From a virus: a stretch of 47,030 nucleotides of DNA. Shown here one piece after another: positions 21,079 through 29,021 of the stretch (position 1 is its first letter; each line of letters begins with the position of its first letter). The notes under the pieces were generated by a model, which was given only the letters and a program-made list of their open reading frames with translations, ran no database searches and had not been told where the DNA came from. The DNA is taken from IMG/VR virus record IMGVR_UViG_3300032291_002336, positions 1 to 47,030 of that record. One strand, written 5' to 3'. The position numbers and the translations under genes were made by a program.

Positions 21079-21783
21079 TTAATTATTTAATATTCTCAAT
21101 ATTGTACGTTCTCCACAGCTAAATTGCTTTCGTAGCTTTTCCAAACTATATCCTAATGCTCTAAGAGCTTTTACCTCTTTTTCAAATTCCCATACTGGGC
21201 TTTTTTTGGTTCCTTTCATATGTGATGACTTTCCTTTTTTTGCTTCACTTATTTTCCTGGAATGTTCTTCAGTTCTAGGAGGTTTAGGTTTTTTTAATTT
21301 TTGCTTAGTTTCTTCGCTTCTGGGTTTTCCTAGATGCGATTCTCTTTGTTTTTGTCTGTATTCCTCTGTTTGATGAAAATTGTGCGATAATCTCTTTTCA
21401 ATTGTTTCTTTTGACTGTTTTACTCCTTTTCTATATTCCCTTAAAAGGTGTTTATGAGCATCGCTTTTTTTATATCTCAACTTTTCACGTAACTCTTCAG
21501 AAGGATTTTCAATACCCTCTCCCCCATCTGTCATATTAACTAAGGTTCCTGTCCCTAGATCTCTCCTTCCATATTCTTTTATTAGACTTTTTTCTAAATT
21601 GCAAGCTTCTTCCCAAATAACGTCTTCTTTAAAAATAACAACTTTATATCCTACTTTATTTACTATCCATTTCCAATGTTTGTTACGACCGGATTGACTG
21701 TGAGCTCTTTCTTTCTTTTTTCCAATTCCTATATAAAAAATTTGATCAGTATCCTTTCTTATATGTGCGTATACTATTGCCAT
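21079..21783 (-). CDS. GIY-YIG homing endonuclease with NUMOD3 repeats, 234 aa
   Basis: GIY-YIG domain at residues 1-95: VYAHI...IFYIGIGKKKERAHSQ (Arg/His), WEEACNLEKSLIKEYGR with the catalytic Glu, and LVNMTDGGEGI. Residues 100-200 hold several NUMOD3-like DNA-binding units (SEELREKLR, SKETIEKRL, SEETKQKLKK, TEEHSRKISEAKKGK). A C-terminal helix-turn-helix (RALGYSLEKLRKQFSCGERTILRIL) follows. Layout is that of free-standing homing enzymes such as those beside T4 td. It sits directly next to thyA, a classic target. Confidence 0.85.
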   Translation of the reverse strand: MAIVYAHIRKDTDQIFYIGIGKKKERAHSQSGRNKHWKWIVNKVGYKVVIFKEDVIWEEACNLEKSLIKEYGRRDLGTGTLVNMTDGGEGIENPSEELREKLRYKKSDAHKHLLREYRKGVKQSKETIEKRLSHNFHQTEEYRQKQRESHLGKPRSEETKQKLKKPKPPRTEEHSRKISEAKKGKSSHMKGTKKSPVWEFEKEVKALRALGYSLEKLRKQFSCGERTILRILNN

Positions 21784-21846: not shown

Positions 21847-23076
21847 TTAGTTCGAGAGATCAGCTTTAATCGATGGATGTGATTGATAATTTTCTATAAT
21901 AAAGCAATTAGATGACCATATATGTAAATTATCAATTATTGATATTTTTTTACCAATTGCTGGTTCAAAAATATTTAATGTTGGTAATGGATAAGATTCT
22001 TTTCCAATTTGTTCTTTAGCTTGTTCAATGTGGTTTGAATATAAATGAACGTCACCCAAATTTCCAATCAATTCATCAGGAATCATATTAACTTCTTTAG
22101 CAATAATTTCTAATAATAAACCATAACTTGCAATGTTAAATGGTAATCCTAAAAATGTATCTACACTTCTTTGATTCCACATTAATGATATTGCTCTAGT
22201 TGGAATATTAACATCATCACAAGTTTTTTTAATTATTTCAAGTATTTTTTTACCAGATTTATAATTTTTTGCATTACTATTCAATAAACCACTATAACCT
22301 TTTTTTTCCAAAATAGATTGTCTTTCTCCTAAACTAATCTCTCTAGTATAAACTTGAAATCCATAATGACAAGGTGGTAAAACCATTTGGTCTAATTCAC
22401 CTACATTCCAAGCAGATACCATCAATCTTCTACTATCAGGATTTGTTTTAAGTTCATTGATTAGGTTTTGGATTTGGTCTATTTCTGTATGATAACCATA
22501 AGCTATTCCTATATTTTTATTAATTAATATAGAATCACAAAAACTACCAAAACTAGGTCCACATTCCTCTCCATAATTTGCACTCCAAATTTCGGAATGT
22601 TTTTTCCAAGCAGCGTCAAAATCAAACCCTTTAGGTTCCATTCTTGGTACAGCCCAACTTCTCCATTGTTTACCATATATTGGTCCTAATTCTCCCCACT
22701 TGTTAGCAAATTCCTCATCTGTTTTGATTTTGTTGATAAATTGTTCTTGTGAATAAGGTTCATATAAATGAGTTTTAGAATGTTCATTAGCCCATTTTAA
22801 ATAATTCTTATAAGCATCTCCATCCCAAATATGACAATCATAATCTAATAGGAACTTGATGTTAGTATCACCTCTTAAAAACCATAGAAGTTCCGTAACG
22901 ATTGATTTCCAATGCATCTTTTTTGTAGTGATTAATGGAAATCCCTCACTCATTTTATGACGGATTTGTTTACCAAATATTGATATAGTACCTGTACCAG
23001 TTCTATCTTGTTTTGTTATCCCGTTATTAATGATATCTTGAAGTAAATCTGTATATTGTTTATCTAATTTATTCAT
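21847..23076 (-). CDS. thyA: Thymidylate synthase (ThyA type) with two insertions, 409 aa
   Basis: Methylates dUMP to dTMP with methylene-tetrahydrofolate. QDRTGTGT (folate/dUMP Arg), LLWFLRGDTNI, ELGPIYGKQWR, NPDSRRLMVSAWN, the catalytic Cys in LPPCHYGFQVY, RSVDTFLGLPFNIASYG and HLYSNHIEQ are all present. Length is about 145 residues above the usual 264: one insertion lies after GKQWRSW (about 155-205) and another after QVYTREI (about 250-295), plus a long C-terminal part. Start MNKLDKQY chosen because an ATG five codons earlier overlaps the upstream stop. No intron is evident; the frame is open throughout. Confidence 0.9.
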   Translation of the reverse strand: MNKLDKQYTDLLQDIINNGITKQDRTGTGTISIFGKQIRHKMSEGFPLITTKKMHWKSIVTELLWFLRGDTNIKFLLDYDCHIWDGDAYKNYLKWANEHSKTHLYEPYSQEQFINKIKTDEEFANKWGELGPIYGKQWRSWAVPRMEPKGFDFDAAWKKHSEIWSANYGEECGPSFGSFCDSILINKNIGIAYGYHTEIDQIQNLINELKTNPDSRRLMVSAWNVGELDQMVLPPCHYGFQVYTREISLGERQSILEKKGYSGLLNSNAKNYKSGKKILEIIKKTCDDVNIPTRAISLMWNQRSVDTFLGLPFNIASYGLLLEIIAKEVNMIPDELIGNLGDVHLYSNHIEQAKEQIGKESYPLPTLNIFEPAIGKKISIIDNLHIWSSNCFIIENYQSHPSIKADLSN

Positions 23077-23080
23077 ATTA

Positions 23081-23308
23081 TCATAAATCAAAACTTATAT
23101 TTTCATCATTTATTAATTGATTTAGTTGTTCTCTACATTTTAAATATGCATTATAAGTATCCTCACTCATAGTATCAGGTGCATGTTTTGTCTGTCCTCG
23201 TAACCATTGATCCATATCCCATAAAACTGAATGCATTTTTCCAGCATTATTTACTAATTCATATTCTATATTATCTTCCGGTAGATTAAATTCTAATATT
23301 GCTTTCAT
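23081..23308 (-). CDS. Hypothetical protein, 75 aa
   Basis: LPEDNIEYELVNNAGKMHSVLWDMDQWLRGQTKHAP is a pattern found in a conserved small phage family: acidic strand, then a helix and a DxWLR segment; C-terminal half helical. From memory, similar proteins occur near nucleotide-metabolism genes in phages. Function unknown. Just upstream of thyA. Confidence 0.65.
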   Translation of the reverse strand: MKAILEFNLPEDNIEYELVNNAGKMHSVLWDMDQWLRGQTKHAPDTMSEDTYNAYLKCREQLNQLINDENISFDL

Positions 23309-24347: not shown

Positions 24348-24458
24348 CTGTAGTGAAGGGATTCGAACCACTCACGAGGACTTTAGCTTTAACAGTTTAT
24401 CAGTTGTTCCTCACCCTCGAGACAAGAGGTGCATGTCTGCCAATTTCATCACACTACA
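24348..24458 (-). tRNA. Oversized tRNA-Leu-like gene (111 nt)
   Basis: Acceptor TGTAGTG/CACTACA is perfect and the D arm has the Leu-type AATTGGCAGA loop. After it comes a bulged hairpin (CACCTC/GAGGGTG), about 35 unexplained bases and a weak T arm with TTCGAAT. If the hairpin were the anticodon arm, the loop TTGTCTC would read GUC; I do not trust this. Possibly degenerate or interrupted. Confidence 0.45.
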
Positions 24459-24472
24459 ATATTTAATTTTAA

Positions 24473-24591
24473 TATTTAGAACAGGATTCGAACCTGTATT
24501 TTATATCATCTAGAATAATATAAAAGCTTACGTTGTTTTTATAGAGTGGTGTCACCCCACAGCAGCGTCTAACCAATTTCGCCATCTAAAT
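24473..24591 (-). tRNA. Oversized tRNA-Leu-like gene (119 nt)
   Basis: Acceptor ATTTAGA/TCTAAAT, Leu D arm (TGGCGAAATTGGTTAGACGC) and a perfect T arm (ACAGG TTCGAAT CCTGT) enclose about 75 bases. These contain GTGG/CCAC and competing perfect stems TATAAAA/TTTTATA and TTTTATAT/ATATAAAA. Anticodon cannot be placed. Same T arm as the copy at 14165-14298. Confidence 0.5.
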
Positions 24592-24596
24592 ATTAG

Positions 24597-24676
24597 TACC
24601 CCAGGAGGGACTCGAACCCTCACCCTTTCGGACTGACGCTTAAAGCCAGCGTGACTACCAATTCCACCACCGAGGC
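24597..24676 (-). tRNA. tRNA-Leu(UAA)
   Basis: Anticodon arm CTGGC TTTAAGC GTCAG, class II variable arm TCCGAAAGGGT, T arm GAGGG TTCGAGT CCCTC, Leu D loop. CCA not encoded. Confidence 0.85.
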
Positions 24677-24680
24677 AATT

Positions 24681-24705
24681 AAAAAGATCTGAGATTACAA
24701 TCTTG
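24681..24705 (-). terminator. Intrinsic terminator of the giant RNA
   Basis: AAGAT, 11-base loop, ATCTT then TTTTT on the minus strand, just before tRNA-Leu(UAA). Confidence 0.6.
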
Positions 24706-25578
24706 ACGTCAAAGCTTTTGAGACATTATTTATTCTTCTCTTATCCAGGAACTTTTGATCCCTACTCTGACAATGCTGGTTATTTAAGTGAACCACTCTT
24801 TGAGCTACTTTTATTGAACTACTCTCCTCCTAATCACCCCTATTCAAGCTTGCAGGCCTGATTCGTACTTGCGGTACTATAAGTCTTTCAAAAGAATCAT
24901 TCTCAACTTGCGGTCTTGAATGGCATGGAACATCTCCATACTATGTAAGCATCTTTCGTTCGTAGCTGGTAAGCGCTTAAGCTTAATTTGTTTTTTGATT
25001 TTGCATCACAAGCAAATTTAGTTTAGACTTATGGATTATGAAAGTAGTGGCTTACCCTAAGCTTTGTTATCTTTTGAACAACAAAATACTCAACTACTCT
25101 CTGAAGTATCCCTACCTCCATACTTTAAGAAATCTTCTCAACAAAAACCTTGGTAGATTAGTTTTGAGGACAATAACAGCACCACCTGTACATCATCTTA
25201 CCTTTCGATTTTAAGATTTCTCTTATATTGAATAACGCAATTGTATACTTGGAGGTATATTTCTTGCATATATTCTACAGGTTATTCTTATTGCTCTTCC
25301 GAGCTCAATCAGACGACCCACATCGCCTAATCATCGATCCACTTTCCCTACAGTGTCACCCTCGGTACTAAAGGATAAATGATATCCTGCTTGCCTACTT
25401 AACATCTCACGATGCGCAAATTAGTTCAGTCAAACTAATTCACTTTATACCGCTTTCACGGTTTATTTAACGACTATAGGCCGCCGAGTGTTATTTACTA
25501 ACCTGTCCAATCTTAGCCGAAGCCTTAACAATCCAGGTTAGATGGATAACAATATTTTCAAAGAACGTATTTGTTTCT
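24681..25578 (-). ncRNA. Giant structured RNA (about 0.9 kb), GOLLD/ROOL-like candidate
   Basis: No usable open frame, yet GC is higher than in flanking genes and perfect complementary pairs abound: CTAACCTG (25534-25541) with CAGGTTAG (25498-25505) enclosing a C(TTCG)G tetraloop; ACCGT-GAAA-GCGGT; AATTAGTT/AACTAATT (25419-25440); GCTC-GGAA-GAGC; AAGTAT/ATACTT; ATCTTA/TAAGAT; ATGGA/TCCAT; GGTAAGC/GCTTACC. GNRA and UUCG loops are typical of ornate RNAs. A class I promoter precedes it and a terminator ends it. GOLLD and ROOL RNAs (known families) are of this size and lie beside phage tRNAs. Family membership is inference. Confidence 0.65.
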
Positions 25579-25581
25579 ATA

Positions 25582-25608
25582 TTATCAATATACAAACGTT
25601 GTTTTGCT
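25582..25608 (-). promoter_or_regulatory. Class I-like promoter of the giant RNA
   Basis: AGCAAAACAACGTTT then GTATATTGATAAT. The core fits; the TGTCA box is absent. Confidence 0.5.
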
Positions 25609-25852
25609 AGGCCAAATTTCTTTTACCTTTTTTTAACCACTTGCTTTCAGACCAACATGGTTTAATCATTTCAGGAGTTTTTATTAGCCACATTTGATCT
25701 CCATAATGTCCGAAATTTTTCAGATAATTTATTTTACCTAAAATAGCCCACCAACATCCATTTTTATCTTTTTCAAACATAGATATTGGAAATTCTTTCC
25801 ATCCATCTTTGTTTTTTGTGTTAATAATATCACCAATTTTTAATCCAAACAT
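25607..25852 (-). CDS. Hypothetical protein inside the RNA array, 81 aa
   Basis: Start at 25852 (MFGLKIGDIINTKNKDGWKE); a longer frame would run through the tRNA-Thr gene. Beta-rich, with aromatic cluster (GCWWAILGKINYLKNFGHYGDQMWLI) and a basic tail (SKWLKKGKRN). One of only two genes inside the array. Unknown family; an RNA-binding role would be plausible. Confidence 0.6.
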   Translation of the reverse strand: MFGLKIGDIINTKNKDGWKEFPISMFEKDKNGCWWAILGKINYLKNFGHYGDQMWLIKTPEMIKPCWSESKWLKKGKRNLA

Positions 25853-25867
25853 ACATTTTATTTTTTG

Positions 25868-25939
25868 AGCTCTCAACCGGAATCGAACCGATTTTTCCTG
25901 GTTACAAATCAGGTACATCGCCTGCAATGTTTTGAGAGC
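25868..25939 (-). tRNA. tRNA-Thr(UGU)
   Basis: Acceptor GCTCTCA/TGAGAGC, loop TTTGTAA with stem CCTGA/CCAGG (one A-C mismatch next to the loop), T arm ATCGG TTCGATT CCGGT. Confidence 0.8.
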
Positions 25940-26105: not shown

Positions 26106-26113
26106 ATTTAAAA

Positions 26114-26251
26114 AATGACTAATAGACTTTATCAGGAATCTTGCTCTACGCTTCACACACCATTAGAGAGATGAACATTACTGTTTATCCTTAGTGTGTA
26201 CCCTTGCGTCACGTCTCTCCACGCTTATCTACTTACGCTTTTTTAGTCATT
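26114..26251 (-). ncRNA. Compact structured RNA, probably pseudoknotted (138 nt)
   Basis: Closed by a perfect 9-bp helix (26114-26122 with 26243-26251, AATGACTAA/TTAGTCATT). Inside, ACACAC (26155-26160) pairs with GTGTGT (26194-26199), while GAGAGA (26166-26171) can pair with TCTCTC (26214-26219); the two helices cross, which would make a pseudoknot. No frame and no tRNA signature. Lies between tRNA-Tyr and tRNA-Glu. Confidence 0.55.
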
Positions 26252-28490: not shown

Positions 28491-28493
28491 TTG

Positions 28494-29021
28494 TGGAGGT
28501 GCTGGGTTTCGAACCCAGGTCCTGTTCCGTCAGTTATACCACAATTTATTACAAGCTTAGATCTAATATATAAAGGCTCTGCGACGTAGCTAACTTACTT
28601 TTATTGTAAGTATTTTTGATTTACCCTGCTTTCACACCCATCACTCCTAAAGAGCTGTCAGTATCAAGGTACCTTTTTATATTTAATCAGTAAAGGGCCG
28701 ACCGATTTTTCAAACGATCTATTCCACCATCTGGTTCCTATTTTAACATTGTTACCAGCAACTGTGACGAATTCACTTGTATTAGAGCAGCATTCTGAAC
28801 GTGGCTCTGTTTGTAACCCTTATGTTCCTAGGTTGGTTACTACCTGAATAGATTAAGCAGCTACTGCTAAATCCGCTCCAACAAAAGACATTGCATCTTC
28901 GAAAGAGAAAGTTGACTTGTTGTCATTTATTATTCGAACGTACATTTTATAGTGCTATACCATTCATTGCACTGCTTGTTGTATTACACTTTAATCGACC
29001 AGTCAATTCCATGTCACCCCC
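28494..29021 (-). ncRNA. ssrA: Phage-encoded tmRNA (SsrA RNA), about 528 nt
   Basis: The 5' end GGGGGTGACATGGAATTGAC resembles the tmRNA acceptor/D-loop consensus. About 500 bases downstream the T arm (CTGGG TTCGAAA CCCAG) is followed by CACCTCC, which pairs with GGGGGTG over seven positions, with a G3-U70 wobble, the AlaRS identity element. Next to the termini GTGTAATACAACAAG and a CTTGT...TTGTGGTAT segment can form the long H2-type helix. A tag frame ends GADLAVAA followed by TAA at 28855-28853, an Ala-rich proteolysis tag. GTAACC/GGTTAC and AGAGC/GCTCT downstream may be pseudoknots. About 150 nt longer than usual. CCA not encoded. Confidence 0.8.

Follow-up and report, generated by a model that had tools for sequence, protein, structure and literature searches.

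The window, i.e., the whole stretch of 47,030 nucleotides of viral DNA analysed here, encodes on its minus strand an RNA whose identity as a GOLLD we regard as certain for all practical purposes, and positions 25586 to 24680 of that strand likely constitute a complete GOLLD transcription unit of a Bacteroidota phage, with boxA-aided synthesis and assembly of the product into a cage. Beyond GOLLD membership, what is new here is the rRNA-like boxA leader. Such a leader would fit an RNA required to be abundant as well as long and untranslated; GOLLD cages are larger than ribosomes, and the boxA suggests a route to bulk amounts of long untranslated RNA. Bacteroidota is suggested as the host phylum by the type of promoter, by a 71% match at the DNA level to a gene of a Flavobacterium phage and by a DUF4494 protein.

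A GOLLD RNA within a tRNA array

A preliminary description of the window had reported, between 24681 and 25578, nearly 900 nt without a gene, GC-richer than the surroundings and holding a giant structured RNA within a tRNA array, either GOLLD/ROOL-like or of a new class, on a strand that was not named. No open reading frame of at least 60 aa was found in this stretch on either strand, and the homologues conserve no frame, so that a protein-coding function was rejected. The GC content of 24686-25498 is 0.374, compared with 0.285 for the whole window, and 5.8% of 813-nt windows are equally GC-rich. The minus strand encodes the RNA of this gene-free stretch, its folding stability relative to dinucleotide shuffles reaching a z of -3.8; a plus-strand RNA was rejected, since its z was just -1.6 and no plus-strand model match was obtained. 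Of the covariance models proposed in the description, that of GOLLD (Rfam RF02032) matched 24686-25101 on the minus strand over positions 1-416 of 416, with 252.3 bits (gathering score 150; E 9.8e-71), and this full match removes the new class from consideration; ROOL gave no Rfam match at the gathering threshold or at E up to 10, and HEARO had no match in the stretch. The transcript inferred here runs from about 25586 to about 24680, close to the proposed borders. GOLLD RNAs are phage-borne and often found near tRNAs, and the window RNA lies inside a tRNA array called on the minus strand by ARAGORN; a tRNA or tmRNA occurs within 1.5 kb in 26 of the 69 relatives having 1.5 kb on both flanks. 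The features of the locus, in the direction of transcription, are as follows:

25867-25939, minus strand: tRNA-Thr(tgt), 5' of GOLLD (ARAGORN)
25593-25600, minus strand: candidate -7 element of a promoter, AACGTTTG, one mismatch from TAnnTTTG and located 27 nt upstream of the boxA core
25555-25566, minus strand: boxA-like, putative antitermination signal GTTCTTTGAAAA, a conserved leader element
25489-25551, minus strand: hairpin of the 5' leader, with GTTATT/AATAAC as its closing pairing and an inner loop of the UUCG type (folding)
25102-25500 (about), minus strand: GOLLD 5' domain, which forms the cage cap in the solved relative (68-94% identity, 14 covarying pairs)
24686-25101, minus strand: GOLLD 3' domain, which forms the cage ring in the solved relative (RF02032 match, 23 covarying pairs)
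24986-25026, minus strand: variable A/U-rich linker of ~41 nt inside the 3' domain, with no tRNA inside (alignment)
24981-24982, minus strand: J13/15 side (GC) of the kissing contact with L20 (24981-24911 covariation)
24949-24953, minus strand: 5' strand, GAUGC, of a long-range helix (24949-24776 covariation)
24910-24911, minus strand: L20 loop side (GC) of the J13/15 contact (24981-24911 covariation)
24772-24776, minus strand: 3' strand, GCAUU, of the long-range helix (24949-24776 covariation)
24680-24702, minus strand: final covarying hairpin and U-tract, terminator-like, stopping 3 nt before tRNA-Leu (covariation)
24596-24676, minus strand: tRNA-Leu(taa), immediately 3' of GOLLD (ARAGORN)

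A putative boxA in the leader

An unbiased count of all 8-mers was carried out in 44 non-redundant GOLLD leaders (<85% identity). The top enriched 8-mer was GTTCTTTG, present in 40 of the 44 leaders where the remainder of those loci would predict 0.45, and the next independent signal, TTTGTAAAA, is part of TAnnTTTG, the -7 promoter consensus of Bacteroidota. The form TTCYTTRA occurs in 41 leaders, the remaining three being at one mismatch, and TTCTTTGA was seen upstream of nearly all homologues. TAnnTTTG lies at most 60 nt upstream of the boxA-like element in 29 of the 44 leaders, most often at a spacing of 27-29 nt, with some leaders in which 38-57 nt separate the two. A conserved GTTCTTTGAAA element sits between promoter and RNA; for the clade, the order of promoter and then boxA is displayed by those 29 leaders, and by the window with one mismatch in its promoter.

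The preliminary description had attributed to the RNA a promoter core of its own. A sigma-70 promoter was rejected, as the consensus scan returned 7 sites versus 6.6 in shuffles, i.e., no excess; what survives of the claim is the Bacteroidota-type promoter found upstream in most relatives. Taken alone, the -7 element of the window, with no clear -33 element in its upstream region, may be considered a promoter only tentatively. Folding of the leader (25586-25484) yielded an MFE of -19.1 kcal/mol, and an ATTATC/GATAAT pairing equivalent to the leader hairpin is present in many relatives and missing where boxA lies 18-23 nt from the domain.

The same element in rRNA and tmRNA leaders

Leaders of rRNA were sampled from Bacteroidota records in a plasmid collection (n=9). 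The GTTCTTTGAA core is identical in seven of these nine 16S leaders, and TAnnTTTG precedes it in six of the seven. The cores read GAGTTCTTTGAGA in Parabacteroides, GAGTTCTTTGAAA in both Phocaeicola and Segatella, GAGTTCTTTGAAT in Prevotella, ACGTTCTTTGAAT in Hymenobacter, AAGTTCTTTGAGT in Rufibacter and AAGTTCTTTGAAT in Aureibacter; the Flavobacterium leader differs (TTCCTTGA), and that of Flammeovirga has a one-base insertion in the boxA core. GOLLD and rRNA leaders are alike in that, in most, TAnnTTTG is followed by GTTCTTTGA ahead of a long structured untranslated RNA, and differ in that the RNA is pre-rRNA in the latter, with boxA 138-222 nt before 16S. In E. coli, the rrnH boxA is TGCTCTTTAACAA, and the gammaproteobacterial consensus is GYTCTTTAANA, according to a study in which non-coding RNAs were left out of consideration (PMC5725501). 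Two further reports describe boxA as bound by NusB/NusE, with Rho being countered (PMC4807359), and link the rRNA-type antitermination complex to rRNA folding as well (PMC6614801).

Among 12 tmRNAs located in GOLLD loci, GTTCTTTRA ends 5-6 nt before GGGG in six, four others (two of them distinct) are at one mismatch, and two are without the element. A boxA-like GTTCTTTGA is also present at 29035-29027 directly upstream of the window tmRNA (28493-29021, minus strand), between a tRNA and the tmRNA and with no TAnnTTTG nearby. This tmRNA measures 529 nt, compared with ~360-410 nt in relatives, and its called tag, VTNRATFRMLL*, is odd; the tag may have been miscalled, or an insertion may be present in the gene.

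By sequence and position, the GTTCTTTGAAAA element is very probably a boxA. The main competing explanation, which we consider unlikely, is that GTTCTTTGA is a promoter-proximal DNA element or an initial-transcribed sequence needed by the phage or host polymerase, with no part in antitermination. This would account for its nearly always following the promoter at a preferred spacing, and for its presence before a few phage protein genes; however, the element is letter for letter the rRNA boxA of the host phylum, its distance to TAnnTTTG is considerably larger in some leaders, and the copy at the window tmRNA has no such promoter in its vicinity. Much less credible is that the element belongs, as a conserved 5' tail, to the GOLLD fold or its intermolecular contacts and is no transcription signal. 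Its conservation is extreme, and in the clade it invariably lies 5' of GOLLD, but between 18 and 121 nt separate it from the GOLLD domain, a variation which argues that it is not part of the fold; further, GOLLDs elsewhere are without it, and unrelated tmRNAs carry it.

A boxA is not, on the other hand, a property of all GOLLDs. The GOLLDs of Acinetobacter phages (Bestia, YMC13/03/R2096, P577, Ab15 and vB_AciJM_313) and of Streptococcus phage Javan636 share the 3' domain (207-245 bits), have 5' blocks in which a similarity is recognisable and are located within or beside tRNAs, but they have no boxA and are preceded by a tRNA at their 5' side. Thus, GOLLD in itself does not require boxA, and a GOLLD-wide boxA was rejected, the element being absent as well from its expected place in L033 and L034, two loci in which the GOLLD 3' domain is joined to another 5' region.

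Two covarying domains

The RF02032 model describes just the conserved GOLLD 3' domain, the 5' part being without an Rfam family. The 5' domain of the window is common to 12 other GOLLD loci at 68-94% identity, and its pattern alone retrieved at least 119 viral loci. In whole-record searches of 50 records from the loci found with this pattern, 48 contained the full GOLLD 3' domain, and hence the 5' domain is also GOLLD. The exceptions were L123, where the match lies ~300 nt from the contig end, and L164, a match in a bacterial genome that probably arose by chance. It was the sole bacterial match of the pattern and had no GOLLD model match, and on this search a GOLLD in bacterial genomes was rejected. 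Carriers of GOLLD include contigs of 296-304 kb and one phage record of 634,780 bp.

For covariation, 73 homologues at <95% identity were aligned. For the 5' domain, RNAalifold predicted 109 pairs, of which 86 show two-sided changes; the corresponding figures for the 3' domain are 107 and 81. The helices seen in the preliminary description proved to be real, with 94.8% of the predicted pairs being canonical among the homologues, a fraction that dropped from 0.948 to 0.38-0.43 when partners were moved 1-3 columns. For every pair of columns, the score of an APC-corrected G-test was compared with those from 30 null alignments, generated by randomly redistributing the substitutions of each tree branch; this was done with our own script, built on the principle of R-scape and distinct from that program. 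The covariation check that had been proposed gave a strong signal in both domains: 37 pairs covary at E<0.05, 14 inside the ~400-nt 5' domain, 23 inside the 3' domain and none across the two. This agrees with the separately folding 5' domain of ~420 nt that characterizes GOLLD, and with the solved GOLLD, whose cap is made of the 5' regions and whose ring is made of the 3' regions.

One covarying pair, 24981-24911 (score 87.1, threshold 81.8; 99% canonical; G-C in 46 and C-G in 24 sequences), falls outside the nested structure and joins J13/15 and L20, the partners of an intermolecular kissing contact that constitutes bridge B7 of the env-38 GOLLD 14-mer (PMC12286853); by analogy, this contact would be intermolecular in the window RNA as well. 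Another pair, 24949-24776 (score 85.0, 99% canonical), belongs to the GAUGC/GCAUU long-range helix, which is unmarked in the Rfam consensus structure. The A/U-rich linker occupies about positions 76-116 of the 3' domain, and the disordered linker of env-38 (nt 497-538) lies 77-118 nt into a 3' region that begins at 421 (PMC12286853). A hairpin loop holding UGCA was seen, not placeable in register with the palindromic loop L21a (bridge B8) of env-38.

That the window holds a GOLLD relic, decayed or unexpressed, is highly improbable, marginally more so than the fold-based explanation of the leader element. Its 252 bits are below the score of most relatives (mostly 278-327), but the window RNA has all of its major helices paired, and a close relative (94% identical; contig of 113,980 bp) keeps the pairs and lies in the same tRNA setting. 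The window RNA is neither ROOL nor a new giant-RNA class: for this to be otherwise, a chance that we take as negligible, one would have to set the coverage of only half of the RNA by Rfam, with no family for the 5' part, above a 252-bit full-length GOLLD match, two domains linked in 48 of 50 records and a ROOL model unmatched at any threshold.

The 3' end

The two strongest covarying pairs, 24701-24687 (138.6) and 24700-24688 (127.5), are both found in the last hairpin, after which five or more T occur in the next 10 nt in 62 of the 73 homologues, versus a background of 18%. The preliminary description had proposed an intrinsic terminator; the consensus terminator scan detected 3 sites versus 1.1 expected, none at the GOLLD 3' end, and the part of the claim that stands is the conserved hairpin with its U-tract. 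Since the hairpin of the window ends just before tRNA-Leu, the 3' end may be produced by termination or by RNase P cleavage.

Comparison with solved giant RNAs

The window RNA resembles the env-38 14-mer (PMC12286853) in its domain order, full-model 3' domain, place and length of the linker, covarying J13/15-L20 contact, tRNA neighbours and phage-borne nature. It differs in having its own rRNA-like leader with boxA, which is not mentioned in the GOLLD texts consulted, and in that its 14-mer is predicted by analogy. ROOL is likewise a giant phage RNA found near tRNAs and forming cages (8-mer), but with another sequence and fold and with no match in the window. A literature search covering mainly papers outside subscription journals found no paper treating boxA together with GOLLD or ROOL.

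Proposed synthesis and assembly

Host RNA polymerase would initiate near 25586, and the boxA of the nascent RNA would be bound by host NusB-NusE(S10) and other Nus factors. The polymerase thus modified would resist Rho and pausing, so that the ~0.8-kb untranslated RNA could be completed in quantity, and Nus-modified transcription would perhaps also aid GOLLD folding. The hairpin with its U-tract would stop transcription, or RNase P would free the 3' end at tRNA-Leu. GOLLD copies would then assemble into a hollow, RNA-only cage, with ~14 chains in the solved relative and the linker inside. We infer that host rRNA-type antitermination helps to produce the full-length cage RNA. By analogy with the solved relative, cage formation by the window GOLLD is to be expected with good confidence.

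The GOLLD 14-mer cage is hollow and composed of RNA only, and GOLLD reportedly pulls down ribosomes (PMC12286853); GOLLD builds up during lytic growth and is dispensable for phage production in one Lactobacillus brevis prophage (PMC7567579). As to the use of the cage, a lytic-phase compartment, or a sponge tied to translation through tRNAs or ribosomes, may be put forward as a speculative suggestion. The boxA of this clade predicts dependence on host Nus factors and would tie GOLLD to rRNA assembly, which fits the ribosome pull-down.

Further units with promoter and boxA

A scan of all loci for promoter plus boxA identified 85 GOLLDs and, under a simple rule, 18 tmRNAs (more being recognized by eye). 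Several unclassified RNAs, some transcripts bearing tRNAs and a few protein genes were also detected. Because the loci had been selected for GOLLD, none of these counts should be read as a rate. A boxA as a general leader of tRNA arrays was rejected, occurring in just 3 of 25 arrays. As the signal is present in 5' UTRs of phage protein genes, it is not limited to non-coding RNAs. We lean towards the view, with less assurance than for the window unit itself, that a large group of Bacteroidota phages places the host rRNA pair of promoter and boxA ahead of stable non-coding RNAs (GOLLD, tmRNA and several undescribed ones), which would thereby pass through the antitermination and folding machinery of host rRNA; if true, the pair of promoter and boxA would serve as a beacon for finding unknown phage RNAs.

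A conserved RNA of ~140-200 nt (GTCCGTAGGGC...GTGAGGAAAGTGACTACGGG...) with its own promoter and boxA was observed in L126:4124, L105:3236, L136 (minus strand) 5749, L087, L090, L132 and L163, being directly upstream of GOLLD in L126, L105 and L136. The L126 copy had no Rfam match at E 1, and GAGGAAAGT in this RNA is reminiscent, by its sequence, of RNase P RNA. In L137 (minus strand) 1684, L086 and L070:6005, another promoter and boxA unit begins with an RNA closed by CTACTCAAG/CTTGAGTAG and continues with a tRNA-like sequence. The protein genes with promoter and boxA in their 5' UTRs are those of L142:382, L145, L151 and L117 (MSEDNFNEVE...), and of L136 and L116 (MSNETQVID...).

Other observations at the locus

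An 81-aa open reading frame at 25607-25852 (minus strand), between tRNA-Thr and GOLLD, had no Pfam match and was absent from all other fetched loci (tblastn). Two tRNA-like genes with long variable arms, uncalled by ARAGORN and possibly degenerate, occupy 24348-24466 and 24470-24595 (minus strand). Between tRNA-Glu and a tRNA-like gene, a structured element of ~140 nt (26110-26250, minus strand) with the closing helix TGACTAAAA/TTTTAGTCA had no Rfam match, and a 68% identical copy of it was found in L075 over 149 nt (E 3e-11). Finally, the thymidylate synthase exceeds the stretch matched to phrog_160 by ~130 aa and adjoins a NUMOD3 protein (21847-23091 and 21079-21783, minus strand), an arrangement for which an intein or an insertion is a possible explanation.
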